Source: Salinibacterium sp. (GTDB taxonomy: Bacteria; Actinomycetota; Actinomycetes; Actinomycetales; Microbacteriaceae). From it: a stretch of 64,000 bases of DNA. The stretch lies in the NCBI GenBank assembly GCA_019638845.1, contig JAHBSZ010000001.1, positions 620,001 through 684,000 on the forward strand, written 5' to 3'. Below the pieces are notes generated by a model that did not search any database, was not told the DNA's origin, and saw only the letters and a list, made by a program, of their open reading frames with translations. Of the stretch, positions 42,358 through 59,761 are shown piece by piece (position 1 is the stretch's first letter; the number at the start of each line of letters is the position of its first letter). The position numbers and the translations under genes are program-made.

Positions 42358-42375
42358 CCAGAACTAAGGAGACAC

Positions 42376-42639: not shown

Positions 42640-42651
42640 CGTGGATTAAAC

Positions 42652-42665
42652 ACGGCGATCGTCGT
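42652..42665. promoter_or_regulatory. Imperfect palindrome before the nar regulator
   Basis: ACGGCGATCGTCGT is a 14-bp near-palindrome with one mismatched pair of positions, centred on CGATCG and 11 bp from the regulator start codon. Possible autoregulatory site. Confidence 0.3.
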
Positions 42666-42676
42666 TGAATATACCC

Positions 42677-43300
42677 ATGATCGCGCGTCGTCCTCGGAGC
42701 CAGGTCAAGACGCTGTCATCGCTGAGCCGGATCAACCTGCTACATGAACTCCAGCTCCATGGGTCGATGACCGTCACCGAACTCGCGACTGCGACCGGCT
42801 TGCACCACAACACGGCGCGTGAGCACCTGCACTGCCTCATCGACGCCGGGTTTGTGCGCGCAGAGCCGATCCCACGGACGAGCAAGGGTCGACCCAAGAT
42901 CCTCTATCGTGCTGCCAACCGGCCCGACGATCCGGCGCGCGAGGCCCGGCTACACGCTGCTGACATTCGCACCGAGCGGTTTCGCCGCCTCGTACCGATC
43001 CGCGAGATCAGGTCGGATCACGCTTCTCTCAATCGACAACTCGATGTGCTCGACGACCATCTGGATCAATGCGGTTTCGATGCGGATATCAATCCGGATG
43101 CCTCCCTCATGACCGTGCACGCGTGCCCGTTCTCGGATCTCGCGAGAGAGAACCCTCAGGTCTGCCAGGTGCACTTCGCCTTGGTCAAGGACGCCCTTGA
43201 GTTGACGGATGGCCCGCTCGATGCGAGGGAACTGCATCCATTCTCAGGAGTAGACGAGTGCACGCTGGACTTGGAAAGTCCTCCCCGAGCTATTCCTTGA
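42677..43300 (+). CDS. Winged-helix regulator with SufR-like cysteines, upstream of narGHJI
   Basis: 207 residues from ATG 42677. The N-terminal winged helix reads LSRINLLHELQLHGSMTVTE and LATATGLHHNTAREHLHCLI, with the wing SKGRPKILYRA. The C-terminal domain has cysteines at about 132, 150, 163 and 195. VHACPFSDLARENPQVCQVH places two Cys 13 residues apart (C-x12-C), as in SufR-type Fe-S regulators. It likely senses oxygen or NO through an Fe-S cluster and controls the nar operon that starts 116 bp downstream. Both the cluster and the target are inference. Confidence 0.8.
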   Translation: MIARRPRSQVKTLSSLSRINLLHELQLHGSMTVTELATATGLHHNTAREHLHCLIDAGFVRAEPIPRTSKGRPKILYRAANRPDDPAREARLHAADIRTERFRRLVPIREIRSDHASLNRQLDVLDDHLDQCGFDADINPDASLMTVHACPFSDLARENPQVCQVHFALVKDALELTDGPLDARELHPFSGVDECTLDLESPPRAIP

Positions 43301-43416
43301 CCTCACCGTAGGCATTTTTCACGGCCACTATGCCTTGCGCGCGCGCCAGCATCGGTGAAGGCTCGGCAATGGGAGTCTCGCGGTCGCGACACCCCGACGC
43401 ACCGTCAGGAGTAGTC

Positions 43417-46400
43417 GTGAACAGTCGCAAGATAGCTAACATTCCTTCAACCGGTACTGACGGCCTTCTTGCCGATTCCCTTCTCACCCTCGGACGGTTC
43501 CTGCGACCGGGCGCTGTCTCGGCCGATCTGCGCTCCGTCTTTCTTGAAGGTGGGCGCGAGGCTGATTCGTTCTACCGCGATCGCTGGTCACACGACAAGG
43601 AGGTGCGGTCCACTCACGGCGTGAACTGCACTGGCTCGTGCTCGTGGAAGGTGTACGTCAAAGACGGAATCATCACCTGGGAGACCCAGCAGACCGACTA
43701 CCCGTTGGTCGGGCCGGACTCACCGGAGTACGAACCACGCGGTTGCCCCCGGGGAGCGTCATTCAGTTGGTATACCTACTCACCCACTCGGGTGAAGTAC
43801 CCGTACGTGCGCGGCGTTCTGCTCGAGGCATACCGTGCCGCGAAGGCGCTGACGGGCGACCCAGTGCTCGCCTGGGCCGAAGTCACCGGGAATCCCGAAA
43901 CCGCACGCGCCTACAAGAGCGCGCGAGGAAAGGGCGGGTTAGTTCGCGCTAGCTGGGACGAAGCATCCGAGATCGTCGCGGCGGCCCACGTGCACACCAT
44001 CAAAAAGTACGGCCCTGACCGCATCGCAGGTTTCTCTCCGATTCCCGCAATGTCCATCGTGTCGCAGGGTGTCGGGGCCCGGTTCATTTCGATGCTCGGC
44101 GGCACGATGCTGTCGTTCTACGACTGGTACGCCGACCTCCCCGTCGCCTCCCCCCAGGTCTTCGGTGACCAGACCGACGTTCCGGAATCCGCCGACTGGT
44201 GGAACTCGTCCTACCTCGTAATGTGGGGCTCCAACGTTCCGGTCACCCGCACCCCAGACGCGCATTTCATGGTGGAGGCTCGCTACCGGGGGCAGAAGGT
44301 CATCGTCGTCTCCCCCGACTACGCCGACAACACGAAGTTCGCCGATGAGTGGCTCTCGCCCCACCCGGGCACGGATGGCGCCCTCGCCATCGCTATGGGG
44401 CATGTGATCCTCAAGGAATTCTTGGTCGATCGGCGCACTCCGCAGTTCATCGACTACATGAAGAAGTTCAGCGATTCGAGTTACCTCATCGAGCTGACGA
44501 AGCGCGGCAAGTCCTGGGTTCCCGGCAAGTTCCTCATGGCTGACGCACTGCCGGGTGCGGCGGCCAAGCTGCCGAATGCTGCCTTCAAGCCCGTGCTCCT
44601 CGACCAGAAGGGTGCAGCCGTCGTACCCAACGGTTCGATCGGTCACCGCTTCTCTGAGAAGGAGGCAGGACTCTGGAACCTCGACCTCGGCGATGTTGAT
44701 CCTCTGTTGTCGATCGCGGATGCCGCCGACCATGACGGCACGGCAGTTCTCGTCGATCTGCCGCGGTTTGACCTCGCCCCGGACGTCACACAGGAGCACG
44801 CCGGCAGTGCTGGCACGATGCGACGCGGCGTTCCGGTACGAACGGTCGCCGGCCGCACGGTCACGACGGTGTTCGACCTGCTCCTCGCCCAGTACGGGGT
44901 CGGGCGCGACGGGCTGCCCGGCGAGTGGCCGACCGGCTACGACGACGCGAGCTCTCCCGGAACTCCGGCCTGGCAGGAGGAGATCACCTCCGTGCCCGCC
45001 CAGGCTGCGGAGCGGATCGGTCGCGAGTTCGCCCAGAACGCAGAGGACTCCGACGGGCGGTCGATGATCCTCATGGGCGCGGGCACCAACCACTGGTTCC
45101 ACTCCGACACGATCTACCGATCCTTCCTGGCGTTGACCACGATGACCGGTTGTCAAGGAAAGAACGGCGGCGGCTGGGCTCACTACGTTGGACAAGAGAA
45201 GGTTCGTCCGCTCACCGGGTGGGCACAGTACGCATTCGGTCTTGACTGGGTGCGGCCGCCACGCCAGATGATCGGCACCGCCTATTGGTACCTGGCGACA
45301 GACCAGTGGCGGTACGACGGACTCCCCGCCGACACACTGTCCAGCGCCCAGGCCACTGGGCTGTTCCAGGGACGCACCACTGCGGACTGCCTGGTCGAGT
45401 CCGCGAAGCGTGGCTGGATGCCGAGTTATCCGACGTTCAACCGCAATCCGCTCGACATCGTCGATCAGGCGAAGGAGGCGGGCGTCGAGCCAGCACAGTA
45501 CGTCGTCGACCAACTGACGAGCGGCGAGTTGCAGTACGCCTGCGAAGACCCGGATGCCCCGGAGAACTTCCCGCGAGTGCTGAATGTCTGGCGGGCGAAC
45601 ATCATCGGGTCTTCCGGCAAGGGAAACGAGTACTTTCTCAAGCACCTGCTGGGAACGAGTTCGGCGATCCGGGGCGAGGAGTCTGGACCCGACCGGCGGC
45701 CGAAGTCGATCACGTGGCACGAGGAAGCGCCCGAAGGCAAGCTCGACCTGATGGTCACGAGCGACTTCCGGATGACCTCGACGACGACGTTCAGCGATGT
45801 CGTACTGCCGCCGGCCACCTGGTATGAGAAGCACGACCTGTCCACGACGGACATGCACCCGTTCATCCACACCTTCAACCCCGCGATCACTCCGCCCTGG
45901 CAGGCCAAAACCGACTTCGATATCTTCCACCTGCTCGCGAAAAAGATCTCCGAGTTCTCGGTCGAGCACCTCGGGGTGCGCGAGGATCTCGTGGCATCGC
46001 CACTCATTCACGACACGGCAGACGCCATGGCCACGCCGCACGGAGTGGTCGTAGACAACCCCACGTTGATCCCCGGCGTCACGATGCCCAAACTCTCGGT
46101 AGTCGAGCGCGACTATCCGGCATTCGCGGCCCGGATGGCAGCCCTCGGGCCGCTCACCACGAAGCTGGGCATGATCACCAAGGGTCTGAAGTACGACCCC
46201 GATGTCGAGGTCGTCGATCTCGGAGTGCGAAACGGCCTCGTGGAGAGCGGACCGACGAAGGGTCGACCCAAGCTCGATACCGACATCAAAGCCTGCGACA
46301 TGGTGCTCGCCCTGTCCGGTACGACCAACGGTCGGCTCGGAACTCAGGGTTTCGAGTTGTTGGAGAAGAAGACGGGCCAGAAGCTCGCTCACTTGGCGAG

Positions 46401-47169
46401 CGACAGCGCCGATCGCCGATTCACTTTCAGAGAGGTCTCCGGCGCTCCGGTACCCGTGCTCACCTCGCCCGAGTGGTCGGGAAGCGAGCACGGCGGCCGC
46501 CGCTACAGCGCCTTCACCATCAACGTCGAGCACCTGAAGCCGTGGCACACGCTCACCGGGCGCCAACACTTCTACCTCGATCACGACTGGATTCTGGAAC
46601 TGGGAGAGGCGTTGCCCGTCTTCCGGCCACCGCTGGACATGCACCGGCTGTTCAACGACTCGATCGTAGGGTCGACCTCACCTACTGGTGCGCCGGGCTC
46701 GACGGATCGAGCCGAGGTTGCGGTGCGCTACCTCACACCGCACTCGAAATGGTCGATTCACTCGGAGTACCAAGACAACCTCATGATGCTCACCCTCGAC
46801 CGGGGCGGCCCGACAATCTGGATGTCACCGCAGGACGCCGACAAGATCGGGGTGCGCGACAACGAATGGATCGAGTCCTACAACCGAAACGGCGTCGTGG
46901 TGGCTCGGGCGGTCGTTTCACACCGGATGCCCGAGGGAACGGTCTTCATGTACCACGCGAAGGACCGCACAATCAATGTGCCCATCGCCGAGACCTCGGG
47001 AATGCGCGGAGGCACCAACAACTCGCTCACGCGCATCCTGCTCAAACCGACTCACCTGATCGGCGGGTACGCCCAGCTGACATTCGCTTTCAACTATCTC
47101 GGACCGACCGGGAACCAGCGCGATGAAGTCACCGTGATTCGTCGCCGCAGCCAGAAGGTGGAGTACTGA
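43417..47169 (+). CDS. narG: Respiratory nitrate reductase, alpha subunit
   Basis: 1250 residues from GTG 43417, which has AGGAG 5 nt upstream and gives the normal family length. Reduces nitrate to nitrite at a Mo-bis-MGD centre facing the cytoplasm. The N-terminal FS0 cluster ligands are in STHGVNCTGSCSWKVYV and EPRGCPRGASFSW (H/C-x3-C-x3-C...C). The Mo-ligand Asp region is FYDWYADLPVASPQVFGDQT. The gene overlaps narH by 1 nt (TGATG). First gene of narGHJI. Confidence 0.97.
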   Translation: MNSRKIANIPSTGTDGLLADSLLTLGRFLRPGAVSADLRSVFLEGGREADSFYRDRWSHDKEVRSTHGVNCTGSCSWKVYVKDGIITWETQQTDYPLVGPDSPEYEPRGCPRGASFSWYTYSPTRVKYPYVRGVLLEAYRAAKALTGDPVLAWAEVTGNPETARAYKSARGKGGLVRASWDEASEIVAAAHVHTIKKYGPDRIAGFSPIPAMSIVSQGVGARFISMLGGTMLSFYDWYADLPVASPQVFGDQTDVPESADWWNSSYLVMWGSNVPVTRTPDAHFMVEARYRGQKVIVVSPDYADNTKFADEWLSPHPGTDGALAIAMGHVILKEFLVDRRTPQFIDYMKKFSDSSYLIELTKRGKSWVPGKFLMADALPGAAAKLPNAAFKPVLLDQKGAAVVPNGSIGHRFSEKEAGLWNLDLGDVDPLLSIADAADHDGTAVLVDLPRFDLAPDVTQEHAGSAGTMRRGVPVRTVAGRTVTTVFDLLLAQYGVGRDGLPGEWPTGYDDASSPGTPAWQEEITSVPAQAAERIGREFAQNAEDSDGRSMILMGAGTNHWFHSDTIYRSFLALTTMTGCQGKNGGGWAHYVGQEKVRPLTGWAQYAFGLDWVRPPRQMIGTAYWYLATDQWRYDGLPADTLSSAQATGLFQGRTTADCLVESAKRGWMPSYPTFNRNPLDIVDQAKEAGVEPAQYVVDQLTSGELQYACEDPDAPENFPRVLNVWRANIIGSSGKGNEYFLKHLLGTSSAIRGEESGPDRRPKSITWHEEAPEGKLDLMVTSDFRMTSTTTFSDVVLPPATWYEKHDLSTTDMHPFIHTFNPAITPPWQAKTDFDIFHLLAKKISEFSVEHLGVREDLVASPLIHDTADAMATPHGVVVDNPTLIPGVTMPKLSVVERDYPAFAARMAALGPLTTKLGMITKGLKYDPDVEVVDLGVRNGLVESGPTKGRPKLDTDIKACDMVLALSGTTNGRLGTQGFELLEKKTGQKLAHLASDSADRRFTFREVSGAPVPVLTSPEWSGSEHGGRRYSAFTINVEHLKPWHTLTGRQHFYLDHDWILELGEALPVFRPPLDMHRLFNDSIVGSTSPTGAPGSTDRAEVAVRYLTPHSKWSIHSEYQDNLMMLTLDRGGPTIWMSPQDADKIGVRDNEWIESYNRNGVVVARAVVSHRMPEGTVFMYHAKDRTINVPIAETSGMRGGTNNSLTRILLKPTHLIGGYAQLTFAFNYLGPTGNQRDEVTVIRRRSQKVEY

Positions 47170-48836
47170 TGCGAGTCATGGCCCAGATGTCGATGGTGAT
47201 GAACCTCGACAAGTGCATCGGATGTCACACCTGCTCGGTCACCTGCAAGCAGGTGTGGACCAATCGAGACGGGATGGAATACGCGTGGTTCAACAACGTG
47301 GAAACGCGCCCCGGACTCGGCTACCCGCGCCAATACGAGGATCAGGAACGGTGGAAGGGCGGTTGGGTGCGCAACAAGCGCGGCCGGCTCAAGCTCAAAG
47401 CCGGTGGGCGGCTGAAGAAGCTCGCGACGATCTTCGCCAACCCCACGATGCCCACGATCGATGACTACTACGAGCCGTGGACCTATGACTACGACATGCT
47501 CACGAATGCGCCTCAGACGAAGAACGGCCCGGTTGCGCGCCCGAAGTCGCTCCTCACGGGCAAGGACATGGACATCACGTGGTCGGGGAACTGGGATGAC
47601 AACCTAGGGGGCTCGCAGGAGACGGCACACCAGGACCCCATCCTCGCCCACATGAGCGAGCACGTGAAGATGGAGTTCGAGAACACCTTCATGTTCTACC
47701 TGCCGCGCATCTGCGAGCACTGCCTGAACCCGTCCTGCGTATCCGCGTGCCCCTCGGGGGCAATGTACAAGCGTGAGGAAGACGGCATCGTCCTCGTCGA
47801 TCAGGATGATTGCCGCGGCTGGCGCATGTGCGTGCCCGCATGCCCGTATAAGAAGGTCTATTTCAATCACAAGACGAACAAGGCCGAGAAGTGCACGCTG
47901 TGCTACCCGCTCATCGAGCAGGGCAAGCCGACGATCTGCTCTGAGACCTGCGTTGGGCGCCTGCGCTACCTCGGCCTGATGCTGTACGACGCCGACCGCG
48001 TGCTTGAGGCGGCGGCCGTCGAGAACGAGCATGAACTGCTCGACGCGCAGCGCTCGGTCATGCTCGACCCGTTCGACCCTGCCGTCATCGCTCAGGCGAA
48101 GAAGGATGGCATCGCCGATGACTGGATCGCCGCGGCTCAGAAGAGCCCGATCTACAAGCTCATCAGCGAGTACAAGGTCGCGCTTCCGCTGCACCCCGAA
48201 TACCGCACGATGCCGATGGTGTGGTACATCCCGCCTCTCTCGCCCGTCGTCGACGTCATCTCCAACAGCGGCAACGACGGCGAGGATGCACGCACCCTGT
48301 TCGCCGCGATCGACAAGCTCCGCATTCCCGTCGAATATCTGGCGGGGCTCTTCACTGCTGGCGACACCGTCCCGATCGAGCACTCCCTCAAGAAGCTCGC
48401 CGCGATGCGCTCCTACATGCGCGACATCAACCTCGGCAACGAGGCGAACGAGAACATCGCCAGAGCCGTCGGCATGTCTGGTGCGGAGATGGAGGCGATG
48501 TATCGCCTTCTCGCGATCGCCAAATACGAGGACCGCTACGTGATCCCGAAGGCCCACGTCGAGTCCGCACGCGACCTCGATGAGTTCGCCTGCTCGCTCG
48601 ACACAGACGGCGGACCAGGGATGGGCGGCGCGCGCTCCACGGGCGACGTTCTGGCGACTGCGCGCATCCCGGGAACACCGATCGACTCGACGGTGGAGAG
48701 TTTCGCCTCGCTCAAGAATCTCACCGACCCGAGTGAGCCCTCGACGCCGGGCCGATTGAATCTGCTCAACTGGAACGGCGGCGGCATCTCGAACGGGATG
48801 TTCCCACCGACCGCCGAGGCGGGTGGGTCCGCATGA
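47169..48836 (+). CDS. narH: Respiratory nitrate reductase, beta subunit
   Basis: 555 residues. Electron-transfer subunit carrying three 4Fe-4S and one 3Fe-4S clusters. The four Cys groups are seen in order: LDKCIGCHTCSVTCKQVWT, ICEHCLNPSCVSACPSG, CRGWRMCVPACPYKK (Trp replaces one Cys, the 3Fe-4S site), and CTLCYPLIEQGKPTICSETC. Connects NarI haem to NarG. The stop overlaps narJ by 4 nt. A later ATG at 47178 is a possible start. Confidence 0.97.
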   Translation: MRVMAQMSMVMNLDKCIGCHTCSVTCKQVWTNRDGMEYAWFNNVETRPGLGYPRQYEDQERWKGGWVRNKRGRLKLKAGGRLKKLATIFANPTMPTIDDYYEPWTYDYDMLTNAPQTKNGPVARPKSLLTGKDMDITWSGNWDDNLGGSQETAHQDPILAHMSEHVKMEFENTFMFYLPRICEHCLNPSCVSACPSGAMYKREEDGIVLVDQDDCRGWRMCVPACPYKKVYFNHKTNKAEKCTLCYPLIEQGKPTICSETCVGRLRYLGLMLYDADRVLEAAAVENEHELLDAQRSVMLDPFDPAVIAQAKKDGIADDWIAAAQKSPIYKLISEYKVALPLHPEYRTMPMVWYIPPLSPVVDVISNSGNDGEDARTLFAAIDKLRIPVEYLAGLFTAGDTVPIEHSLKKLAAMRSYMRDINLGNEANENIARAVGMSGAEMEAMYRLLAIAKYEDRYVIPKAHVESARDLDEFACSLDTDGGPGMGGARSTGDVLATARIPGTPIDSTVESFASLKNLTDPSEPSTPGRLNLLNWNGGGISNGMFPPTAEAGGSA

Positions 48837-49480
48837 CCCCCGACCAGCGGCGGACCGCGCATATGGCGGCATCCATCCTTCTGGACTATCCGGATGTCGC
48901 GCGCCGCGAGCAGTTCCCTGCGGTTGCCGCATCCGTGGCCACATTGCCTGCGGAGATCGCCGATGAGTTCGAGGCGTTTCTTGCTGCAGCGTCGGCGATG
49001 GACCAGCAGCAGTTGGAAGCTCACTTCACCGCGATTTTCGACCTCAAACGCAAGTGCAGCCCTTACCTCAGCTACTACTCGACCGGTGATACCCGCAAAC
49101 GCGGCATGGCACTCGTGAGTTTTATCGAGGCCTACCGGGCGGCGGGATGGGAGGTGGAAGACGGCGAGTTGCCGGACTATCTGCCCATGGTGCTCGAGTT
49201 CTCGGCTCGCAGCGATTCGCCGATAGCCGGCGAGCTACTCGCCTCTCACCGCGAAGGTATCGAGGTTCTCCGTACCGCTTTGGAGCTATTCGGAAGCCCA
49301 TACATCCACGTCGTCGCCGCAGTCTGCGCCTCGCTTCCGGAGATCGACGACGCGACGCGAGAACGCTATCTGAGGCTCGTCAACGAGGGCCCACCTACAG
49401 AGTTGGTCGGCATCACATTCCTCGGCGCACTCGCCCCATTCGCGCCATCGGGTGCTACCAGTGAAGGAGTGCGGGTATGA
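48833..49480 (+). CDS. narJ: Nitrate reductase molybdenum cofactor assembly chaperone
   Basis: 215 residues. Cytoplasmic TorD/NarJ-type helical chaperone that holds NarGH until the Mo cofactor is inserted. HFTAIFDLKRKCSPYLSYYS followed by GDTRKRGMALVSFIEAYRAA is the NarJ signature, with LPDYLPMVLEFSA next. ATGA overlaps with both narH and narI show tight coupling. Confidence 0.95.
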   Translation: MTPDQRRTAHMAASILLDYPDVARREQFPAVAASVATLPAEIADEFEAFLAAASAMDQQQLEAHFTAIFDLKRKCSPYLSYYSTGDTRKRGMALVSFIEAYRAAGWEVEDGELPDYLPMVLEFSARSDSPIAGELLASHREGIEVLRTALELFGSPYIHVVAAVCASLPEIDDATRERYLRLVNEGPPTELVGITFLGALAPFAPSGATSEGVRV

Positions 49481-50256
49481 ACGTTGTGGATGTTCTGCTG
49501 TGGATCGTCTTCCCCTACATCGCCGTTGCCAGTTTCGTCATCGGTCACCTGCTGCGATACCGCTACGACAAGTTCGGCTGGACCTCACGTTCGAGCCAGA
49601 TCTACGAGAGCAAACTGCTGCGCTGGGGCTCCCCGATGTTCCACTACGGCATTCTCGGGGTGTTCGCGGGCCACGTGGTCGGGCTCCTGGTCCCGCGCGA
49701 GTGGATGGAGTTCTTCGGAGTCAGCGAGCATCTCTATCACCTTGGCGCCACCTGGATTGGCACCGTCGTCGCATTCGTGACGATTGCCGGTTTGGTGATC
49801 CTGCTGTCCCGACGCGGAGCGATCCGCCGGGTCGCTCGAGTGACGAGTGTCATGGATGTCGTCATGTACCTGTTCCTCGCTGGCTCACTTGTGCTCGGCA
49901 CCATCGCGGTCGTCCAGTTTCAGGTTCTCGGCGCTGGCTACGACTACCGCGGCTCGGTGTCGCCCTGGATTCGCAGCCTCATCTTCTTCCAGCCGGATGC
50001 TGCGCTCATGGCCGGCGTTCCCTTGATGTTCCAGCTCCACGTGCTGTGCTCGACCACGCTATTTCTGATCTGGCCCTACACCCGATTGGTTCACGTGCTG
50101 TCGGTGCCGATCGGATACCTGTTCCGTCCCTATGTCGTCTACCGTTCGCGGGACGCCCATCGCGGCGCACGCGCGGTGCGGCGCGGCTGGGAGCCCAGCG
50201 ACCGCCCGGTACCAAAGCGGCCGAAGCAAAAACAACCGGTTCGCCCGGGTCATTAG
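49477..50256 (+). CDS. narI: Respiratory nitrate reductase, gamma subunit (cytochrome b)
   Basis: 259 residues, five membrane helices. Oxidises quinol and passes electrons through two b haems to NarH. Haem ligand His residues are in MFHYGILGVFAGHVVGLLVP and in MFQLHVLCSTTLFLIWPYTR then LVHVLSVP. The opening VLLWIVFPYIAVASFVIGHL is typical. The C-terminus is Arg/Pro-rich and cytoplasmic. It is followed by narK after 33 bp. Confidence 0.96.
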   Translation: MNVVDVLLWIVFPYIAVASFVIGHLLRYRYDKFGWTSRSSQIYESKLLRWGSPMFHYGILGVFAGHVVGLLVPREWMEFFGVSEHLYHLGATWIGTVVAFVTIAGLVILLSRRGAIRRVARVTSVMDVVMYLFLAGSLVLGTIAVVQFQVLGAGYDYRGSVSPWIRSLIFFQPDAALMAGVPLMFQLHVLCSTTLFLIWPYTRLVHVLSVPIGYLFRPYVVYRSRDAHRGARAVRRGWEPSDRPVPKRPKQKQPVRPGH

Positions 50257-50289
50257 TTCCCCGTATGCGCGCAATGTGAAAGGTCCAGA

Positions 50290-51606
50290 ATGACGTCAGC
50301 AGCAGGCTCCGCCCTCAAACCGGATCTCTCCAATTGGAACCCAGAAGACGAGTCCACCTGGGATAAGAAGCTCGCGTGGCGCACCCTGTGGGTCACGACT
50401 TACACGATGGTGCTCGCCTTCGCGACCTGGTATCTCGTAAGCGCAATCGCGCCACGGCTGAACGACATCGGCTATGCCCTCACCAAGGAGCAGCTCTACT
50501 GGCTGGTGGCGGTGCCCGGCCTGGCAGGAGGGTCCCTGCGACTGGTTTTCATGTTCCTTCCGCCGGTGTTGGGGAGCCGTAAGCTCGTGGCGTTGAGCGG
50601 CGCACTCTTGGTGCTGCCCCTCATCGGCTGGACGTTCGCCGCGCGCGATTCATCCACCCCCTACTGGGTGCTCATTTCGCTAGCGCTGGCCGCAGGTGTC
50701 GGCGGGGGAAGCTTCTCCGGGCTGATGGCCTCGACGAGCTACTTCTTCCCGAAACGTCTCGCCGGAACCGCGCTCGGCATTCAGGCCGGAATCGGCAACC
50801 TCGGAATCGGCGTCATGCAACTGCTGCTCCCGTGGGTTGTGGGATTCGGTCTCTTTGGCACCGCCCTACTCACCCCGCAAAGCGCCGCAGAAGGCAAGTT
50901 GGTCTGGTTGCACAACGGTGGACTGGTTCTCATTCCCTGGGTGCTGCTCGCCGTGGGTCTCGCGATCCTCATTCTGCGCCGGGTTCCCGTGAAGGCCAAC
51001 TTCCGGCAGCAGCTCGACATCTTCCGACACAAGCACACCTGGATCATGACCGCGATCTACCTGATGTCCTTTGGGGCATTCAGCGGGCTTGCCGCGCAGA
51101 CCGGGCTCATCATCCTCAATGTGTACGGGCACTTCCCGGATGCCCCGAACCCACTCACCTGGGCGTGGATCGGGCCGATGCTCGGAGCGCTGGTCCGCGC
51201 CGCAGTCGGACCACTGTGTGACAGGCTCGGCGGCGGAGCCCGCTTCACCCTCATTGGTGGGCTCGGGATGACGCTCGGCACCGTGGTGACACTCTTCTTC
51301 CTCAACCCCGCGTCGGCCAGCGAATTCAGCGGATTCTTCACCGGGATGCTCATCATTTTCTTCTTCTCCGGGTTCGCCAACGCGGGAACCTTCAAGCAGA
51401 TGCCGATGATCTTCCCGCCGCGCCAGGCCGGTGGTGCCATCGGGTGGACCGCCTCGATTGGAGCGTTTGGGCCATTCCTGGTCGGAATGTCGCTCTCGGT
51501 CATGGCTCCGTCGGCATTTTTCATTATCTGTGCGATCTGGTGTGCCTTCTGCTCGGGACTCGCGTGGTGGTTCTACGCACGTCCGAATGCCGAAATGCCG
51601 AGCTAA
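50290..51606 (+). CDS. narK: Nitrate/nitrite transporter, NNP-type MFS
   Basis: 438 residues, 12 helices. Nitrate signature motifs are present in both halves: LAAGVGGGSFSGLMASTSYF with FPKRLAGTALGIQAGIGNLG, and FFSGFANAGTFKQMPMIFPP with RQAGGAIGWTASIGAFGPFL. It would bring nitrate in and/or export nitrite for NarGHI. The stop is followed after 1 nt by the P450 reading frame, so the two are likely co-expressed. Confidence 0.95.
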   Translation: MTSAAGSALKPDLSNWNPEDESTWDKKLAWRTLWVTTYTMVLAFATWYLVSAIAPRLNDIGYALTKEQLYWLVAVPGLAGGSLRLVFMFLPPVLGSRKLVALSGALLVLPLIGWTFAARDSSTPYWVLISLALAAGVGGGSFSGLMASTSYFFPKRLAGTALGIQAGIGNLGIGVMQLLLPWVVGFGLFGTALLTPQSAAEGKLVWLHNGGLVLIPWVLLAVGLAILILRRVPVKANFRQQLDIFRHKHTWIMTAIYLMSFGAFSGLAAQTGLIILNVYGHFPDAPNPLTWAWIGPMLGALVRAAVGPLCDRLGGGARFTLIGGLGMTLGTVVTLFFLNPASASEFSGFFTGMLIIFFFSGFANAGTFKQMPMIFPPRQAGGAIGWTASIGAFGPFLVGMSLSVMAPSAFFIICAIWCAFCSGLAWWFYARPNAEMPS

Positions 51607-51607
51607 A

Positions 51608-52771
51608 GTGGTCTCGGCCAAGCAAACCGACGATTGGGATCCGCGAGGCCCCGGGGCTCTCGCGGATCCGACGCAGGCCTATGACGCGATGCGCGGCACC
51701 TGCCCGGTGGCGCACAGCGAGTATCTGGGGTGGTCTGTGTTCCGTCATTCCGACGTGGTCGCGGTAGTCGAGGATCACGCGAGCTACTCCAGCCGCGTTT
51801 CGGCGCGACATCCGGCAGTTCCGAATGGCTACGACCCCCCACAGCACGGACGATACCGAGACCTCGTCGACCACTATTTCCACCCAGACGACGTAAACAC
51901 GTTCGAGCCACTGTTCTCATCCATCGCCTCCGAACTGGCGGCGGAACTCCCGGGCGACGGAAGCGAAATCGAGTTCATCGATCGCTTCGCACTCACCTAC
52001 GCGCTGCAGACTCAGCGTGCCTGGTTGGGCTGGCCCGACTATTTCGCGGTGGCACTGCGGGAATGGGTGACACGACAACACAGTGCCACTCTTTCGGGCG
52101 ATCGCCAGGCGCTCGCCGACGTCGCTCGTGACTTTGATGGGGTAGTCAGTCGGGTGCTCGCGGAATGGCGGGCACGACCGAGTCCCGCTGATGACATCAC
52201 TAGTCGCTTGCTAAGAGAGCAGATCGATGGAGTGCCGCTCAGTGATGACGAGATCGTGTCGATCTTGCGCAACTGGACGGTCGGGGAACTGGCGACGATG
52301 TCGGCGAGTGTCGGCATTCTCGTCGATTACCTTGCGCGTCATCCGCAGCTACAGGAGCGCCTGCGTCACGCTCCTGAAGACCTCCCGGCGGCAATCGACG
52401 AGATCTTGCGTATCCATGCCCCGCTATCGTCCAATCGTCGCGTGACCACGCGCGCCGTTGAACTAGGGGGCCGATACATCGATGCGGGCGAGCGGATCAC
52501 GATTTCCTGGGCGTCAGCGAACCGCGATGAGGCTGTCTTCGGTGATCCAGATGAGTATCGACCCCACGAGAATGCGCCGCACAATCTGCTCTACGGTCGC
52601 GGTATCCACGACTGCCCAGGCGCACCTCTAGCCAGGCTGGAATTACGGGTGGCCATTGCGGAACTGCTCGCGGCTACCCGCCAGATCGCGTTGTCTCTGG
52701 ATACCCCGCCAGTCGTTGCTGCTTACCCCGCAAGCGGCTTTCGGACGCTTCCGGTGCATATCTTTCGCTAA
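51608..52771 (+). CDS. Cytochrome P450, sixth gene of the nar operon
   Basis: 387 residues from GTG 51608 (ATG 51587 is an alternative). The haem-thiolate motif is LLYGRGIHDCPGAPLARLEL with Cys about 336. The K-helix ExxR is in IDEILRIHAPLSSNRR. The I-helix position reads RNWTVGELATMSASVGILVD and lacks the acid-alcohol pair (usual AGxDT) needed for O2 activation. The protein lies directly after narK with no gap, in a nitrate/nitrite/NO island with no visible Nor. A role in NO reduction or detoxification, as in P450nor, is plausible inference; a monooxygenase role is less likely. Confidence 0.85.
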   Translation: MVSAKQTDDWDPRGPGALADPTQAYDAMRGTCPVAHSEYLGWSVFRHSDVVAVVEDHASYSSRVSARHPAVPNGYDPPQHGRYRDLVDHYFHPDDVNTFEPLFSSIASELAAELPGDGSEIEFIDRFALTYALQTQRAWLGWPDYFAVALREWVTRQHSATLSGDRQALADVARDFDGVVSRVLAEWRARPSPADDITSRLLREQIDGVPLSDDEIVSILRNWTVGELATMSASVGILVDYLARHPQLQERLRHAPEDLPAAIDEILRIHAPLSSNRRVTTRAVELGGRYIDAGERITISWASANRDEAVFGDPDEYRPHENAPHNLLYGRGIHDCPGAPLARLELRVAIAELLAATRQIALSLDTPPVVAAYPASGFRTLPVHIFR

Positions 52772-53370
52772 CCGAGCGCAGCGAAGAGGTCAAGGCGCCA
52801 CTGCGCAAGCACAGCGATAAGGAGATAGGCCGCAAACGTGACAAGCGGAATCCAATTGAAGGCGGTCGCGGCGGCGCGACGAACGGGTTGAGGTATCGGA
52901 ACTTCAGCAGCGCGCAGAGTGTCGAACACGACGACGAGAAAGAGCGGGATGGTGGCGGTCCAGGTGACCATGCACCACGGGCACAGCACACCGAGAACGA
53001 ATATGCTCTGGCCGATAAACCAGACAACGAGCCCGAACGCCGCGGCGCTGCCCAAGCTGAACAACCCCCAGAACCAGGGCGCAAAGTGGCCGCCCGCGAG
53101 CAACCCCACGCCCACCACGATGACTGCCGACCAGAACATGAGACCGAGCAACGAGTTGGGGAAGCCGAAAATTGCACCCTGCTCGGAGTTGAGATTCGTG
53201 CTGCAACTCACCAATGCGCTGAAGTTGCACGATAGGGGCGTGTTCGGGTCAGCGAGCAGCGCGAACTTGTCGAGGGTGAGTGCGAGCGACGCAGTGAGCC
53301 CCACGGCACCGGTGACCAACAGTGTGACCACGACGGTGATCGGCGCACGATGCGAGGCGACCGGAACCAT
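52768..53370 (-). CDS. Vitamin K epoxide reductase family protein
   Basis: 200 residues, about five helices. VKOR homologues re-oxidise DsbA-like partners using quinone, making disulfides in exported proteins. The active CxxC is in VLGVLCPWCMVTW, and the loop pair is in PLSCNFSALVSCSTNLNSEQ. No fused thioredoxin domain. It is convergent with the P450, overlapping by 4 bp, and divergent from moeA with a 94-bp gap. Confidence 0.92.
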   Translation of the reverse strand: MVPVASHRAPITVVVTLLVTGAVGLTASLALTLDKFALLADPNTPLSCNFSALVSCSTNLNSEQGAIFGFPNSLLGLMFWSAVIVVGVGLLAGGHFAPWFWGLFSLGSAAAFGLVVWFIGQSIFVLGVLCPWCMVTWTATIPLFLVVVFDTLRAAEVPIPQPVRRAAATAFNWIPLVTFAAYLLIAVLAQWRLDLFAALG

Positions 53371-53464
53371 ACCCGTAGTGTGGCGCGTGCCAGCCTCTCA
53401 GTCGACAGGGAAGTGCCGTGACAAATGCGGATCCGCGCTCCATCGCACTCAGTAGGGTTGAGGA

Positions 53465-54724
53465 ATGACTCAGGGCGGCGATGAGGGCTCGGCCCCGAGG
53501 AGCATTACCGAGCACCGAGACCACATCCTCGCCACAATTCGGCCCCTCGCGCCCGCGACGGTTCCGCTTCACGAGGCGCTAGGCCACACTCTCGCTGCCG
53601 ACCTCCACGCCGACGTGAATGTACCAGGCTTCGACAATTCCGCCATGGACGGTTACGCCGTTCGGCTAGCGGATGTCACATCCGCAGCCCCCGATACGCC
53701 CGTGACCCTGCGGGTGGTCGCTGACCTCCCCGCGGGCGCTTCCGACGATCCCGCACTCAGCACTGGCGAAGTCACGCGCATCATGACGGGGGCTCCGGTC
53801 CCGACAGACGCCGACTGCATCGTACCCATCGAGGACACCGACGAGGGCACCGTGACAGTGACCATCGTCCGGGCTCCGACACCCGCGGCGCACATTCGCC
53901 GAACCGGAACCGATGTGCAAGCCGGTGACCTGGTGCTGCCTGCGGGCCGGGTACTCGGGCCGCGGGATCTCGCGGCGGCCGCCGCGACGGGCGCGAGCGG
54001 CCTGCTCGTGCATCCGGCACCGCGCATCGGCGTCATCTCGACGGGCAGCGAACTGCGCGATCCGGGCGAACCGCTCGGGCGTGGGCAGATCTTCAACTCG
54101 AACTCGGTGCTACTCGCCGCACTGGTCAATAGCAGTGGCGGCATCCCTGTGCAACTCGGCTCGGTTCCGGACGACGAGGATGCCCTGCGCACCATGCTCG
54201 ACCGGGCGGCGCCGTCGATCGATGCGTTTGTGACCTCGGGTGGCGTCAGCGTCGGCGCCTACGACGTCGTAAAGGCTGTGCTCGCGCCGATGGGGGTGTG
54301 GTTCGGCCCGGTGCGCATGCAGCCCGGAAAGCCGCAGGGCTTCGGATCATGGCCCGGCCCCGGCGGCGCGGCTGGGCCGCCGATCTTCGCCCTGCCCGGC
54401 AACCCCGTGAGCGTGTTCGTCTCCTTCGAGGCCTTTGTGCGTCCTGCACTTCTCGCGCTCCAGGGCCAGCATGACGTGCTGCAGGAGTCGCAATCAGGAG
54501 TCGCCACGGCAGGTTGGCGGAGCCCGATCGGTCGAACGCAGTACATGCCTGTCGTCGCCCGCCGACAAGCGGATGGCACACTCGCTGTCCGTCCGGCAAG
54601 CAGCGGAGGGTCCGGCTCCTACCTCGTCGCAAGTCTCGCTGGCGCGAACGGCCTAGCGATCGTGCCCGAGGCGGTGACCGAGGTGCGGATTGGTGACGCC
54701 ATCGAGGTCATCCTCATCCCTTGA
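53465..54724 (+). CDS. moeA: Molybdopterin molybdenumtransferase
   Basis: 419 residues. Inserts molybdenum into adenylylated molybdopterin. Signatures: VPGFDNSAMDGYAVRLADVT, EVTRIMTGAPVPTDADCIVP, RIGVISTGSELRDPGEPLG and SGGVSVGAYDVVK. The C-terminal domain IV is complete. Supplies cofactor to NarG; with mobA it flanks the nar operon. A DUF2249 gene follows after 72 bp. Confidence 0.96.
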   Translation: MTQGGDEGSAPRSITEHRDHILATIRPLAPATVPLHEALGHTLAADLHADVNVPGFDNSAMDGYAVRLADVTSAAPDTPVTLRVVADLPAGASDDPALSTGEVTRIMTGAPVPTDADCIVPIEDTDEGTVTVTIVRAPTPAAHIRRTGTDVQAGDLVLPAGRVLGPRDLAAAAATGASGLLVHPAPRIGVISTGSELRDPGEPLGRGQIFNSNSVLLAALVNSSGGIPVQLGSVPDDEDALRTMLDRAAPSIDAFVTSGGVSVGAYDVVKAVLAPMGVWFGPVRMQPGKPQGFGSWPGPGGAAGPPIFALPGNPVSVFVSFEAFVRPALLALQGQHDVLQESQSGVATAGWRSPIGRTQYMPVVARRQADGTLAVRPASSGGSGSYLVASLAGANGLAIVPEAVTEVRIGDAIEVILIP

Positions 54725-54796
54725 TCACTCGGCCCGTTTAGATTTGTCACGGCCTTCGCGGGCCCACCCGCAGAACTCACTGAGTACGGTGAAGGT

Positions 54797-55135
54797 ATGG
54801 CTGCAGAACCGATCGACCTTCAGAGCTTCGCTCCCGCTCCCGCTCCCGCTCCCGCAACAGGCTCGGCCTGCGCGTGTGGACATGCAAACGAGAGCGAGGT
54901 GGTACTGGATGTGCGACAGATTCCGCACGCGGTCCGTCATGCTGCGATCTTCGGCGCGTTGGGTGCCATCGCCCCAGGATTCAGTATCGATCTCGTTGCC
55001 GATCACAATCCGTTGCCGCTACTCGAGCAGCTAGACCAGAAGAATCCCGGCGAGTTCGCGGTGACCTACCTCGACGCCGGTCCCGAGCTGTGGAAGTTGC
55101 ACCTGGTCCGACAGCACGCAAGCGCTACGGCGTAA
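54797..55135 (+). CDS. DUF2249 protein
   Basis: 112 residues. An Ala/Pro-rich leader containing SACACGHANE is followed by a DUF2249 domain: VVLDVRQIPHAVRHAAIFGA, PGFSIDLVADHNPLPLLEQL and a C-terminal ELWKLHLVRQ. This SirA-like small domain recurs near nitrate, nitrite and NO metabolism genes and haemerythrin-like proteins; its biochemical role is not established. AAGGT precedes the ATG. The 3' end overlaps the convergent nirK-like gene by 11 bp. Confidence 0.85.
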   Translation: MAAEPIDLQSFAPAPAPAPATGSACACGHANESEVVLDVRQIPHAVRHAAIFGALGAIAPGFSIDLVADHNPLPLLEQLDQKNPGEFAVTYLDAGPELWKLHLVRQHASATA

Positions 55136-57707
55136 CGCGGAAGGTCCCGATCGCGCCCTTCTCCGAGTCCGACATCACGTGGGTGACGAACGAGTAGGTT
55201 CCGGCCTCTGGGAACACCAGCTCGACAAAGCCGCCCTGCGCTGGCTGTAGCGCGAGCACCTGTGACCCACCCGTTCCTGTGCTCCCGCCGTTCCTGAGCA
55301 GGTATTCCCCCTCAGAGAACACCGTGTCGAACTGACCGCCCACAATGTGGAACGAGCTTGGTCGGTTGGGGCCGGCATCGAGCACCCACACGCGCACGCG
55401 CTCACCGACCCGCACATCGATCGGTCGGTATCTGTACTGGTTCGCATACCCGTTGAACACGACAAGGTCAGGGTTCTGCGTGGCGATCCTCGTCGGGTCC
55501 GCGACTCCAGCCTGAGGACCGAGATAGAGCTCGGACTGCACAAACACGAACTCGCGATCGGCGGCTGCGAGCCCCGGCGGATCGATGATGACGGCACCGA
55601 ACATACCGTTGGCGATATGCAGCGACATGGGCATGGTCGAGCAGTGATACAGCCAGATCCCGGATCGCGTCGCTGTGAAGCTATAGGTAAGTCGCTCCCC
55701 GGGCTGAAGGGTGCGCATCGGTTCATTCGGCGCAAGCGACCCAGCGTGGAAATCGATCGAATGCCCCATGGTGCCGTCATTGACGAGGGTGATCTCGAAA
55801 GTGTCTCCGACCATCCCGCGCAGGGTGGGACCGGGCGCAGTACCTCCGTAGGTCCACAGGGTCTGCATTACCCCGGGCGCCACCTCGTGCACCTCGTCGC
55901 GTACCGTGAACGTGTATTCGTGAACGGTCGCGGACGTTGCCGGTGGCAGCGCCGCGTCACGCGCCTCGAAGCTGGCATCCGGTTGCTTCATGAGATCGAT
56001 GTCTCCCGCGGCCGAGGGACCCTCGGTCAGGGCGGTCTGGTGACCGCTGTGACTCGGAACGGCAAGCGGGGTCGCCGCAGCGATCATGGTGACCGACATG
56101 ACCATTCCAAGTTGCCGGTGTCCCGCGATAGAACACCACCCGTCGAGGTCCGAGCCGATGACTCCCACCTCGACGTCGACAGTCTGACCAGGGTTCATGA
56201 GCTTCGAGGATGCCCCGTTCTCCAGCACGAGATCATGCACCTGATCATCGTTGTTCGTGAGCCGAATGACGAGCTCATCGCCGGCGGGAACGGAGACAAC
56301 GTCGGGGGTAAAGCGCATGTCTTTCATGCTCATCTCGACGGTCGTCGTGTGGCCGGTCGGGGTCACCGATACCGCGGGTTTGGTGAGCTGGAGGCCAGCC
56401 GCGACCGGGTCGAGTGCGATGCCGAGTGTGAGCGCCATCACCACTGTTGCGACTGCGGCGGCGAGTGCCCCGCCACGGCGCGTGGGCACCAGCGGCGGCT
56501 CGGCGGCAGTCGCGGGCATCCGGGAGGCGACCACCGCACGGAATGCAAGCACGAGGAACACGAGCAGCACCGCGAAGACCAGGAACGAGTCGACGACCTT
56601 GACTAAGCTCGGCACCGGCAGCAGATAGAGGATGATCCCGAGGTTGACCACGGCGGCCCGGTACAACGCGGCTCGGTTCAACTCCAGAGCGGTGCGGCGG
56701 TACGTGCTCGGGCCGCCGCCAAGCACAACGGGTAGCAGATAGCTGAGCGCGCCCAGCAGGATCTGCGCTGCGAATCCGACCGCGAACGGTCCGACGAGCC
56801 AGCCGAGGCCGGCCGCGGCATCCTTCCAACTCTGCGCCTCGACGATCGTCACGCCGAACGCGATTGTGGAGAACACGAACCAGCCAAACGCGGCCGCGAT
56901 GCTCCAACTTGCGAACGTCTGCTGCTGCGGGAAATTCCGGGCCAAACGCACACCGTCGGCGGCGACGAAGCCGACTCCCGCGAGGTATACGAGTAGGCCG
57001 ATCGCGAACAGGGGTCTCAGACCCAGCAGGCTCGCTGTCCCCACCGTCATGAGCCCGACCACGCAGAGCCAGAGTGCACGACGAGCGGTCGCATCCACCT
57101 CGTCGGAGACGCGGGTGTGAAGCACTGTCGGCCAGAGCAGGACGACCGTACCGATGACTGCAAGCCCGAGCCAGCCGAGCAAGTTGAAGGCAAGATGGGC
57201 GGGATAGAGCTGGTCGTGCATCCCCTCCGGGAGAGCGCCGCGCGCCATAGCCACGCCGATCCCGACGCCGATCGCGAGGGAGAGCCCGGCCGCGATGTAG
57301 AAACGGACGACCGGACCGAACCGGCTTGGCAGTGCGCTTCTCGACTGGGCCACGAGCGTCATTGCGTGAGTGACCGCGACTGCGGCCACAACGATTCCGC
57401 CGCTCAGCACAAGCTTCCACAACTCCGTGAGCATGCCCGCCACGACAAGTGCGACGCCGACGGTGTGACCGCCAAGCCGGATGCCATGGAACACCCGCCC
57501 CCCGGGCGCCGGGTGCCGGAGCAACGTGTCGGCGAAGTGCTGACTCCACACCAGTACGGCCGTGCTCATCGCTCCCAGCAACAGCAGGTGGACCATGAGC
57601 CACTCACCGTTCGGCACGAAACGATGCACGGCAACGATGACTGCCGCTGCGACGAGCCACCCGGCGATGAGGCCGTTCATCACGAGGTACCAGCGCTTGC
57701 GGCTCAT
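55125..57707 (-). CDS. nirK: Copper nitrite reductase fused to an N-terminal membrane domain and a cupredoxin
   Basis: 860 residues from ATG 57707, in three parts. About ten membrane helices (1-415). A cupredoxin (about 420-530) with type 1 copper ligands in DDQVHDLVLENG and WCSIAGHRQLGM. A two-domain NirK (about 570-860) with MGHSIDFHAG (type 1 His, catalytic Asp, type 2 His), WLYHCSTMPMSLHIANGM (type 2 His, type 1 Cys, His, Met), SSFHIVGGQFD (catalytic His) and FVTHVMSDSE (type 2 His). All ligands are present. Reduces nitrite to NO outside the membrane. The frame runs upstream to 58709, but that part is antisense to the next gene. ATGA overlap with the NnrS-like gene. Confidence 0.92.
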   Translation of the reverse strand: MSRKRWYLVMNGLIAGWLVAAAVIVAVHRFVPNGEWLMVHLLLLGAMSTAVLVWSQHFADTLLRHPAPGGRVFHGIRLGGHTVGVALVVAGMLTELWKLVLSGGIVVAAVAVTHAMTLVAQSRSALPSRFGPVVRFYIAAGLSLAIGVGIGVAMARGALPEGMHDQLYPAHLAFNLLGWLGLAVIGTVVLLWPTVLHTRVSDEVDATARRALWLCVVGLMTVGTASLLGLRPLFAIGLLVYLAGVGFVAADGVRLARNFPQQQTFASWSIAAAFGWFVFSTIAFGVTIVEAQSWKDAAAGLGWLVGPFAVGFAAQILLGALSYLLPVVLGGGPSTYRRTALELNRAALYRAAVVNLGIILYLLPVPSLVKVVDSFLVFAVLLVFLVLAFRAVVASRMPATAAEPPLVPTRRGGALAAAVATVVMALTLGIALDPVAAGLQLTKPAVSVTPTGHTTTVEMSMKDMRFTPDVVSVPAGDELVIRLTNNDDQVHDLVLENGASSKLMNPGQTVDVEVGVIGSDLDGWCSIAGHRQLGMVMSVTMIAAATPLAVPSHSGHQTALTEGPSAAGDIDLMKQPDASFEARDAALPPATSATVHEYTFTVRDEVHEVAPGVMQTLWTYGGTAPGPTLRGMVGDTFEITLVNDGTMGHSIDFHAGSLAPNEPMRTLQPGERLTYSFTATRSGIWLYHCSTMPMSLHIANGMFGAVIIDPPGLAAADREFVFVQSELYLGPQAGVADPTRIATQNPDLVVFNGYANQYRYRPIDVRVGERVRVWVLDAGPNRPSSFHIVGGQFDTVFSEGEYLLRNGGSTGTGGSQVLALQPAQGGFVELVFPEAGTYSFVTHVMSDSEKGAIGTFRVTP

Positions 57708-58864
57708 GGCCTGCCCTTCCGTCGTTTCGTCAGCGGACCCATCACGGCAGAGGTTGCCGCGAGGGCCGCGAAGAGTAAGACCGACGCGACGTTGAGCACA
57801 CCACCCCAGCGCAGTGCCTCCACGCTGCCCCACGCATCGCCACCGAGCAGCCGGACCATGAGCGAGACGTGCAGTAGCACGACCGGAACATAGAGGAACG
57901 ACCGATACGGCAACGGCTTGCGCAACACCGCTGGCAGTATGACCGGCGCGTGGGCCATGATCATCGACAGTACGAAGCCGAGGAAGATCGCGTGTAGGGC
58001 CGCGTCGTACAAGGTGCCCCCCGCCACGCCGCCCGCGACGATCCAGACGCCAGCAGGCACGATCAGCCAGACATAGCCGACGAGCAGACACACCGCCATA
58101 TAGCGTGGAAGCCCGCTCGCCCCGATGAGGCGCGTCGCCACGTCGTAGCGGAACAGCCACACGATGAGCAATGTCAGCGCTGCGCCAAGCAAGGGGTAGC
58201 CCGGCGCCGGCCAGAGTGGCGCGATTGCGGCAGCGCCGACGAGCAGGAGGGCCGCTCCCAGTCCGAGTCGCTCGGCACGAGCATCCATGACGGGGGAGAT
58301 GCGAGCGAGCTCCAACCGTTCGCCGGCGATCGTCAGAATGAGAAAGAGTGCCATGCCCGGCACGAGTGTCGCGATCGAGGCACCGACCAGCCAGAGGGTC
58401 ACCCCGGTTAGCCCGGCGACCGCGCCAAGTATTTGGATATCGATAGCTACTGCGGGCGAGCGCCTGCGGATCACGAGGTAGACCCCGAGTAGTGCGACGA
58501 ACCCCAGCCCGATCATTGCCTTGCCGACCGCGGCGGGGAGAGGAGAGAGAAGTGCGAGGCTGCCGAGCCCGAGCATGGCGGGCGCCGCGTATCCCCACGC
58601 CCTGCGGGCCGCAACGGCGCGCTCGAGAACAACGAGTGTTCCGACGAAACCGAAAGCCAGGAGCGGCGCATGGAGCTCTGCGATCTCGGCAACCGATAAC
58701 GGCGACCACACGCCCAACAGCAGGAGTGCGGCATCCAATCCGAGCAGTAGCGACAGACCGCCCGGGATGAGGAAAGCGAGGCGCAGCGAGGTGCGGTCGA
58801 GGGCCGGTCGATCGGATGACGCGGCTCCGACCTGCTGGCCGGTCAGTCGTATTGCGGAGGTCAC
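57704..58864 (-). CDS. NnrS-like polytopic membrane protein
   Basis: 386 residues from GTG 58864, about 12 helices. It resembles NnrS, a haem/copper membrane protein linked to NO stress: LRLAFLIPGGLSLLLGLDAA, AEIAELHAPLLAFGFVGTLV (His in helix 2), ALHAIFLGFVLSMIMAHAPV and ILPAVLRKPLPYRS. It is co-transcribed with nirK (4-nt overlap) and comes first. TTG 58882 is an alternative start with no ribosome site. Confidence 0.85.
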   Translation of the reverse strand: MTSAIRLTGQQVGAASSDRPALDRTSLRLAFLIPGGLSLLLGLDAALLLLGVWSPLSVAEIAELHAPLLAFGFVGTLVVLERAVAARRAWGYAAPAMLGLGSLALLSPLPAAVGKAMIGLGFVALLGVYLVIRRRSPAVAIDIQILGAVAGLTGVTLWLVGASIATLVPGMALFLILTIAGERLELARISPVMDARAERLGLGAALLLVGAAAIAPLWPAPGYPLLGAALTLLIVWLFRYDVATRLIGASGLPRYMAVCLLVGYVWLIVPAGVWIVAGGVAGGTLYDAALHAIFLGFVLSMIMAHAPVILPAVLRKPLPYRSFLYVPVVLLHVSLMVRLLGGDAWGSVEALRWGGVLNVASVLLFAALAATSAVMGPLTKRRKGRP

Positions 58865-58880
58865 GTCACACCGCCTATCC

Positions 58881-58914
58881 AATAAAGAGGAAGAAACTCC
58901 TTTTTACCATTATA
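58881..58914 (-). promoter_or_regulatory. Promoter and dyad for the nnrS-nirK operon
   Basis: A perfect -10 hexamer TATAAT on the minus strand (58914-58909) lies 45 bp before the GTG. Just downstream is the AT-rich dyad AAAGAGGAAGAAACTCCTTT (58884-58903), an imperfect palindrome placed where a repressor would block initiation. The best -35 (CTGACC) is weak and at 19 bp, consistent with an activated or repressed promoter. Confidence 0.5.
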
Positions 58915-58935
58915 GGGAGGCGAGGCGCCGGTGGG

Positions 58936-59751
58936 TCAGGTCAACCGAATCTGGCGGTTGACATCCTTGTAGAGCAGATAGCGGAAGTTGCCGGGCCCGC
59001 CCGCGTAGCAGGCTTGCGGGCAGAACGCGCGCAGTGACATGTAGTCGCCCTCCTGCACCTCAACCCAGTCCGCGTTCAAACGGTAGACGGCCTTGCCCTC
59101 GAGCACGTACAGGCCGTGCTCCATGACGTGCGTCTCAGCGAACGGAATCGAGGCGCCGGGCTCGAACGTCACGATGTTGATGTGCATGTCGTAGGCGAGG
59201 TCATCCGTCGGCAGCATGCGCGTTGTGCGCCACCTGTTGTCGGTGCCGGGCATCCCGGCGGGCTCCAGCTGCTGCTCGTTGCCCACGACGGCCTTGGGCG
59301 TATGACCCGCCAACGGCTGGTACGCCTTGCGGATCCATTGGAAGGTAGCGAGCTCGTCGCCCGTGTTCGCCGCCGACCAGGTTGAGCCGGGCGGGAAGAA
59401 CGCGAATCCGCCGGGGGTCAGTTCGTGCCGCTCACCGTCGAGTGTGATCGCGAGGGTGCCGCGCAGGAGGAACAGGAACGACTCGACGCCAGACTCGGGC
59501 TCTGGGGCATCCGATCCGCCACCGGGGGCGACCTCAACCAGATATTGGGCGAAGGTTGTCGCGCCGCCCGCGACCGGGCGGTTCAGTATCCAGGTGCGCG
59601 TGTCGGTCCACTCGGGCAGCACGCTCACGACAATGTCGCGCAGCACGCCGCGCGGAATGACCGTGTAAGCCTCGGTCACGATCGCGCGGTCGCTGAGCAG
59701 GTCGGTCTGCGGCGGAAGCACCGTCTCGGGAACGTAGTAGCTGGGGGTCAT
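58936..59751 (-). CDS. (S)-ureidoglycine aminohydrolase (bicupin)
   Basis: 271 residues from ATG 59751. Releases ammonia from (S)-ureidoglycine in allantoin breakdown; Mn-dependent double cupin. First cupin: GGGATTFAQYLVEVAPGGGS, SFLFLLRGTLAITLDGE, GGFAFFPPGS. Second: FEPGASIPFAETHVMEHGLY followed by VLEGKAVYRLN and EGDYMSLRAFCPQACYAGGP, matching UGHY/YlbA metal ligands (His, Glu, His, Gln). Last gene of the MarR-headed operon. No allantoinase or allantoate amidohydrolase is in view. Confidence 0.9.
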   Translation of the reverse strand: MTPSYYVPETVLPPQTDLLSDRAIVTEAYTVIPRGVLRDIVVSVLPEWTDTRTWILNRPVAGGATTFAQYLVEVAPGGGSDAPEPESGVESFLFLLRGTLAITLDGERHELTPGGFAFFPPGSTWSAANTGDELATFQWIRKAYQPLAGHTPKAVVGNEQQLEPAGMPGTDNRWRTTRMLPTDDLAYDMHINIVTFEPGASIPFAETHVMEHGLYVLEGKAVYRLNADWVEVQEGDYMSLRAFCPQACYAGGPGNFRYLLYKDVNRQIRLT

Positions 59752-59761
59752 GCGGAGGTCC

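Follow-up and report, generated by a model that had tools for sequence, protein, structure and literature searches.

The P450 gene and its neighbourhood

The window, i.e., the whole stretch of 64,000 nucleotides that was analysed, belongs to a Salinibacterium sp. genome of 2.96 Mb, which is 98.5% complete and contains four P450 matches. A narGHJI cluster is followed there by a gene for a narK-type transporter and by a cytochrome P450 gene (Table 1); the latter starts with a GTG codon, 1 nt past the narK stop codon (51604-51606), in agreement with an earlier note on this DNA that had been made from the sequence alone. The VKOR-family gene at the end of the P450 gene adjoins it also in three other loci (L018, L019 and L091). 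Ahead of the operon, a gene at 40953-41669 on the plus strand, whose start lies 4 nt within the end of a GntR regulator gene, encodes a small protein with a sensor domain of the PDC/Cache type. No Rfam family was found at positions 40000-60000 and no FNR-type box in the window.

The copper nitrite reductase of the window reaches 153.6 bits with TIGR02376, under the cut-off of 296.3; motifs that we take to hold its copper ligands are present, and the membrane domain of the fusion has no Pfam match. Of the 396 genomes of the order, 126 have a relative of this 860-aa protein at E ≤ 1e-60, in many cases matching over the full length. NnrS, which the note had placed in the same island, is not supported in the window: the N-terminal membrane part of NirK gave no Pfam match to it even at E ≤ 1, and a comparison with three NnrS proteins from relatives gave no hit at E ≤ 10 to any window ORF of at least 60 aa.

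Table 1. Features of the window, arrangements of the P450 gene beside nar or nirK in the order, and a recurrent upstream arrangement in the Halomonas group
Feature	Position or locus	Strand	Basis
Winged-helix regulator (ArsR/IclR-like), immediately ahead of narG	42665..43300	+	
narG	43330..47169	+	TIGR01580, 1574.9 bits, above cut-off
narH	47169..48836	+	NCBIfam, above cut-off
narJ	48833..49480	+	NCBIfam, above cut-off
narI	49477..50256	+	NCBIfam, above cut-off
narK-type nitrate/nitrite transporter	50290..51606	+	NarK model, 241.5 bits (cut-off 311.7)
P450 gene, 387 aa	51608..52771	+	ORF, Pfam p450, AlphaFold model
B-C loop VPNGYD, conserved, residues 71-76; B' helix absent from the model	51818..51835	+	Alignment, model
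I-helix signature RNWTVGELAT, residues 221-230; acid position A229, alcohol position T230	52268..52297	+	
ExxR motif EILR, residues 265-268 (E265, R268)	52400..52411	+	
Haem-ligand loop YGRGIHDCPG, residues 329-338, Cys336	52592..52621	+	
VKOR-family gene, convergent, with a 4-nt overlap at the end of the P450 gene	52768..53370	-	
moeA (molybdenum cofactor)	53465..54724	+	
NirK (copper nitrite reductase), 860 aa, fused behind membrane and cupredoxin domains	55125..57707	-	
P450 behind narK	window		
P450 convergent with narK	L020		
P450 behind nirK, convergent with narI	L021, L081		
P450 convergent with narI	L022, L023		
P450 ahead of narG	L024, L077		
P450 behind narI	L072		
P450 near nirK only	L049, L050, L052, L053, L071		
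Yip1-domain gene and MarR regulator upstream of P450 (Halomonas group)	L100, L109, L125, L134, L140, L145, L147, L151, L161		

The protein and its motifs

The gene product is a genuine member of the cytochrome P450 superfamily. It matches Pfam p450 with 75.2 bits (cut-off 22.8), and its haem Cys loop and ExxR motif are intact, as had been noted; the AlphaFold model has a pLDDT of 89.9 and a pTM of 0.90, and all 50 best fold matches listed for it are P450s. The closest solved P450s, by both sequence and fold, are AryC/CYP113A1 and EryK (7AYX, 2JJO), antibiotic-pathway enzymes with about 29-32% identity.

O2-activating monooxygenases carry a canonical acid-alcohol pair in the I helix, and the whole pair had been described as missing. 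The alignment bears this out for the acid, replaced by Ala, and not for the alcohol, a Thr that is kept. The same pattern, with A, G or S at the acid position and T or S at the alcohol position, occurs in 123/123 members of the family to which the protein belongs; 80 of them were found with patterns that include the I-helix motif, so an unbiased measure of its conservation comes only from the 43 members that protein search turned up with no motif pattern; there the same residues occur in 43/43. The pair also deviates in some true monooxygenases.

In these 43 proteins R221, T224, G226, L228, P72, D76, W142, W153, W301, R278 and C336-P337-G338 are invariant, and N222, W223 and N73 vary in one protein each. 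As the segments carrying such constant residues face the substrate in P450s, the constancy of the pocket may speak for a single small ligand common to the family. No gene for a redox partner and no biosynthetic gene recurs beside the P450 among the neighbour families listed (25 of 135 and 25 of 124), and redox partners may be encoded elsewhere. Long open frames in L022, L070 and L048 were considered as reductase fusions and rejected, the P450 being the only domain that passes the Pfam cut-off.

A bacterial P450 family distinct from CYP55

Members of the family were collected in two ways. In the order sample, 38 of the 396 genomes have a relative at E ≤ 1e-60; the sample of the window's taxonomic family (299 genomes) gave 12 matches at E ≤ 1e-40, from which four without the motif (L014-L017, taken with wider flanks as L025-L028) were set aside, and five of the other eight lay outside the order sample, making 43 protein-search members. 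Scanning a species-level collection with patterns yielded at least 574 stretches with a coding region for some relative (tblastn E ≤ 1e-3). The best 80 of them were kept; these are mostly from Pseudomonadota, including Stutzerimonas, Halomonas, Marinobacter, Castellaniella, Mesorhizobium, Paraburkholderia, Accumulibacter and others, and many are close kin (Halomonas, Marinobacter, Castellaniella). Terrimesophilobacter mesophilus also carries a member (L149). Two members with the motif are from Deinococcus, while a homologue on a Sphaerospermopsis plasmid (40% identity) has no motif and was not counted as a member. In a phylum-wide sample only 2 of 276 genomes gave a match, one being the window's own, despite many of the 276 being rich in P450 candidates; this finding indicates that the protein is not a generic actinobacterial P450.

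The window protein has 58% identity with its homologue from Stutzerimonas xanthomarina and shares with the other members the I helix RNWTxG[ED]L[AGS][TS] and the CPG haem loop. In a quick tree the 123 aligned proteins group in a single clade, with CYP55A1 and three other P450s outside it (SH-aLRT 98; the branch of CYP55A1 is long and its place unsure).

CYP55A1 of Fusarium oxysporum (P450nor, PDB 1EHE) has in common with the window protein the P450 fold and the tie to denitrification. The note had called for a comparison with CYP55 in the BB' loop and the I helix, and the I helices do align without gaps, window G226-E227-L228-A229-T230 facing A-G-N-A-T in P450nor, with Ala in place of the acid and Thr kept in both proteins (A242-T243 in CYP55A1); moreover, the K291-R292 positions of CYP55A1 correspond to R277-R278. 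The remaining comparison does not sustain kinship between the two. Identity is 27.3% over 362 columns, below the 40% required for membership in the same CYP family, and P450nor is absent from the 50 fold matches listed for the window protein. The family has no counterparts of K62, R64, R174, S286 and D393: of the K62, R64, R174 and S286 positions, which together with the B' helix we take to form the NADH-contact site, the first three show a gap, a gap and Ala (123/123), and the S286 position shows Pro in 121 members and Thr in two. The B' helix is also missing in the AlphaFold model, where no helix lies between residues 56 and 78. It is therefore extremely improbable that the protein is a bacterial CYP55 orthologue, and this assignment was rejected. 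Roles of Ser286 and Thr243 in P450nor are treated in passages of PMC4030948.

In the open-access full text searched, which leaves subscription papers and P450 nomenclature lists outside, no literature on this family was found among the papers listed. Prokaryotic P450s have been put forward as NO reductases, according to passages on Nitrosocosmicus, where the putative enzymes were proposed without biochemistry and are upregulated at low pH (PMC6775971); they resemble the present family by description, but belong to ammonia-oxidising archaea.

Association with nitrate and nitrite respiration

The expectation that the P450 tracks nar and nirK was borne out in the 396 genomes of the order. Calling nirK and narG by E-value limits (1e-60 and 1e-100, respectively), nirK was present in 34/38 genomes with the P450 vs 92/358 without it (Fisher p 9e-15), narG in 36/38 vs 116/358 (p 2e-14) and both together in 32/38 vs 62/358 (p 9e-17), p-values that are too small since the genomes are related. 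The safer genus-level table, the counts of which were read by hand, gives 20/21 genera with the P450 vs 33/89 without it for nirK (p 7e-7) and 21/21 vs 43/89 for narG (p 3e-6). Also within narG-containing genomes, nirK is commoner with the P450 (32/36) than without it (62/116; p 8e-5).

Local linkage in the order is looser. Only 14 of the 43 protein-search loci, including the window, have nar or nirK at a distance of up to about 10 kb, in the several arrangements given in Table 1, and the P450 is separated from narG by 15 and 20 kb in the two nearest relatives. The other 29 loci, five of which are short contigs or contig ends, have neither gene within this distance. An objection raised in advance, namely that homologues would be found mostly outside nar/nir contexts, thus holds locally and fails at the genome level, where narG accompanies 41 of the 43 members.

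In other phyla the linkage recurs. Plasmids of Paraburkholderia fungorum and Caballeronia carry, as annotated, NnrS, narG, narH, narJ, narI, a peptidylprolyl isomerase, a nitrate/nitrite transporter, a small gene and the P450, with one extra gene after NnrS in Caballeronia; the order narGHJI-narK-P450 of the window is therefore found again on beta-proteobacterial plasmids. NnrS is the next called ORF to the P450 in Ensifer and the second in Shinella, NirK adjoins it in Ciceribacter (TIGR02376, 325.5 bits, above the cut-off), and in some Pseudomonadota the P450 lies within 10 kb of norB. Using as markers Nar, NirK, NirS with the haem d1 genes, NorB, NnrS and Hmp, and leaving out nap, nos and regulators, N-oxide genes were found near the P450 in 30/80 loci (25/55 with full flanks) vs 1/20 evenly spaced windows of one host genome; 50 of these 80 loci, the best 80 of at least 574, have none of the tested markers. 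NarG was above the cut-off in 9 of 14 sampled other host genomes, and Nar is thus not obligatory for the P450.

A box of the FNR/DNR type, with at most one mismatch, is present upstream of 27/80 P450 loci vs 43/452 control ORFs (p 1e-7), with start codons being estimated; the exact boxes of L094 and L097 (at -5) are probably within coding sequence, and 25/80 remain when the two are removed (p 1.4e-6). In the Halomonas group, two genes recur upstream of the P450 in the clustering: one for a Yip1-domain protein of about 188 aa, some 1.4 kb away on the opposite strand (14 loci), and one for a MarR regulator (12 loci).

Clade, motifs, association, linkage and boxes set these soluble bacterial P450s apart as a conserved family with a tie to nitrate/nitrite respiration. 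The presence of copies on plasmids and the loose local linkage are what would be expected of an ordinary O2-dependent monooxygenase hitch-hiking on mobile denitrification islands; however, the association holds where the genes are not adjacent and at the level of genera, the arrangements beside nar or nirK differ from locus to locus, the I-helix acid is missing throughout and the pocket residues are constant across phyla, which makes such a passenger improbable.

Nitric oxide reductases in the same genomes

The absence of qNor and cNor noted at the locus extends to the source genome, in which no norB was detected: the NorB-specific PF22085 has no match, and the one COX1-family match (E 7.6e-161) is a 561-aa frame, unlike the qNor of other genomes, which are frames of 790-900 aa with COX1-family E-values of about 1e-50. 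Both the COX1 and the NorB-specific domains are present in the five qNor proteins checked. The combination of a norB elsewhere in the genome and a conserved monooxygenase partner, which would have spoken for another function, was thus not encountered in the source genome.

The P450 had further been predicted to track the absence of norB, and here the opposite was found. Among the 126 nirK-containing genomes of the order, 110 have no PF22085 match and 16 have the qNor domain, which occurs in 10/34 genomes with the P450 vs 6/92 without it (p 0.0015). The P450 therefore does not serve solely as a substitute in genomes that lack Nor, and the reading of it as a general replacement of norB was rejected.

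Proposed function

It is very probable that the P450 has some role in N-oxide respiration. The anaerobic-type boxes, the loss of the acid, the lack of a recurrent redox partner among the neighbour families listed and the company of NO-forming and NO-handling proteins would be most simply accounted for by an enzyme acting on NO, or on an NO-derived species. Read widely, as an auxiliary enzyme in NO handling, this function is the likeliest of the explanations considered, though close to evenly balanced between being right and wrong; in the narrower form, i.e., reduction of NO to N2O, it is advanced tentatively and remains rather doubtful.

Under the proposed mechanism, the P450 would be made when cells respire nitrogen oxides at little O2, and its haem-thiolate iron would bind NO, or species formed from it, in the cytoplasm. 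NarG can form NO from nitrite in this compartment; there such leakage would meet no direct protection by the membrane-bound Nor, and this source may explain why the P450 occurs both with and without Nor. NO would then be removed, most simply by reduction to N2O, for which NAD(P)H or a general ferredoxin would supply the electrons, the P450 acting as an auxiliary to Nor and, in the nirK-bearing source genome without a detected norB, perhaps as a main NO-consuming enzyme. Reduction of NO to N2O by a P450 is known from P450nor and, by this precedent, would be the most economical chemistry for the family; as the NADH and proton residues and the B' helix of P450nor are not conserved, another electron route would be needed, and none was found. 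Should this chemistry apply, the family might represent a second, independently evolved bacterial P450 NO reductase in nitrate/nitrite respirers of Pseudomonadota and Actinomycetota, cytoplasmic and with an electron route unlike that of the fungal enzyme, contributing to the removal of NO and the release of N2O in nirK bacteria without norB as well; we consider this a possible, though on balance unlikely, outcome.

It is also quite possible that the P450 serves nitrate/nitrite respiration without consuming NO, by modifying an organic cofactor, quinone or signal (with peroxide or with no O2), by nitrating a substrate as TxtE and RufO do, or by sensing NO. Such a protein would show the same genomic association with nar and nirK, and the co-occurrence of qNor and the absence of the P450nor NADH site fit it. 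TxtE and RufO are bacterial P450s that use NO for nitration, the NO coming from bNOS, as described in passages of PMC9500659; the TxtE model TIGR04458, however, gives the window protein 66.6 bits against a cut-off of 500, placing it outside the TxtE type, and the lack of a recurrent biosynthetic gene among the neighbour families listed also argues against this explanation. A P450 has moreover been called possibly involved in signal transduction, in passages on the sox-tusA-p450 locus of Hyphomicrobium denitrificans (PMC12423496); it is similar by description, as a P450 of a denitrifier without assigned function, but its locus is one of sulfur oxidation.

The family marks nitrate/nitrite respirers of several phyla and provides a single, soluble and easily tested candidate for NO handling. 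Surveys that look for norB would overlook a source of N2O if the family produces this gas; should its function be another one, denitrification would have a further conserved component.

The plasmid-borne Deinococcus ficus member (L173, 11983-13095) has genes for CbiX/SirB, uroporphyrinogen methyltransferase, nitrite/sulfite reductase and a radical SAM protein of TIGR04053 next to it. The plasmid copy of Ensifer canadensis (L174, 11959-13145) is split over two reading frames, so it is either a broken gene or a sequencing error.
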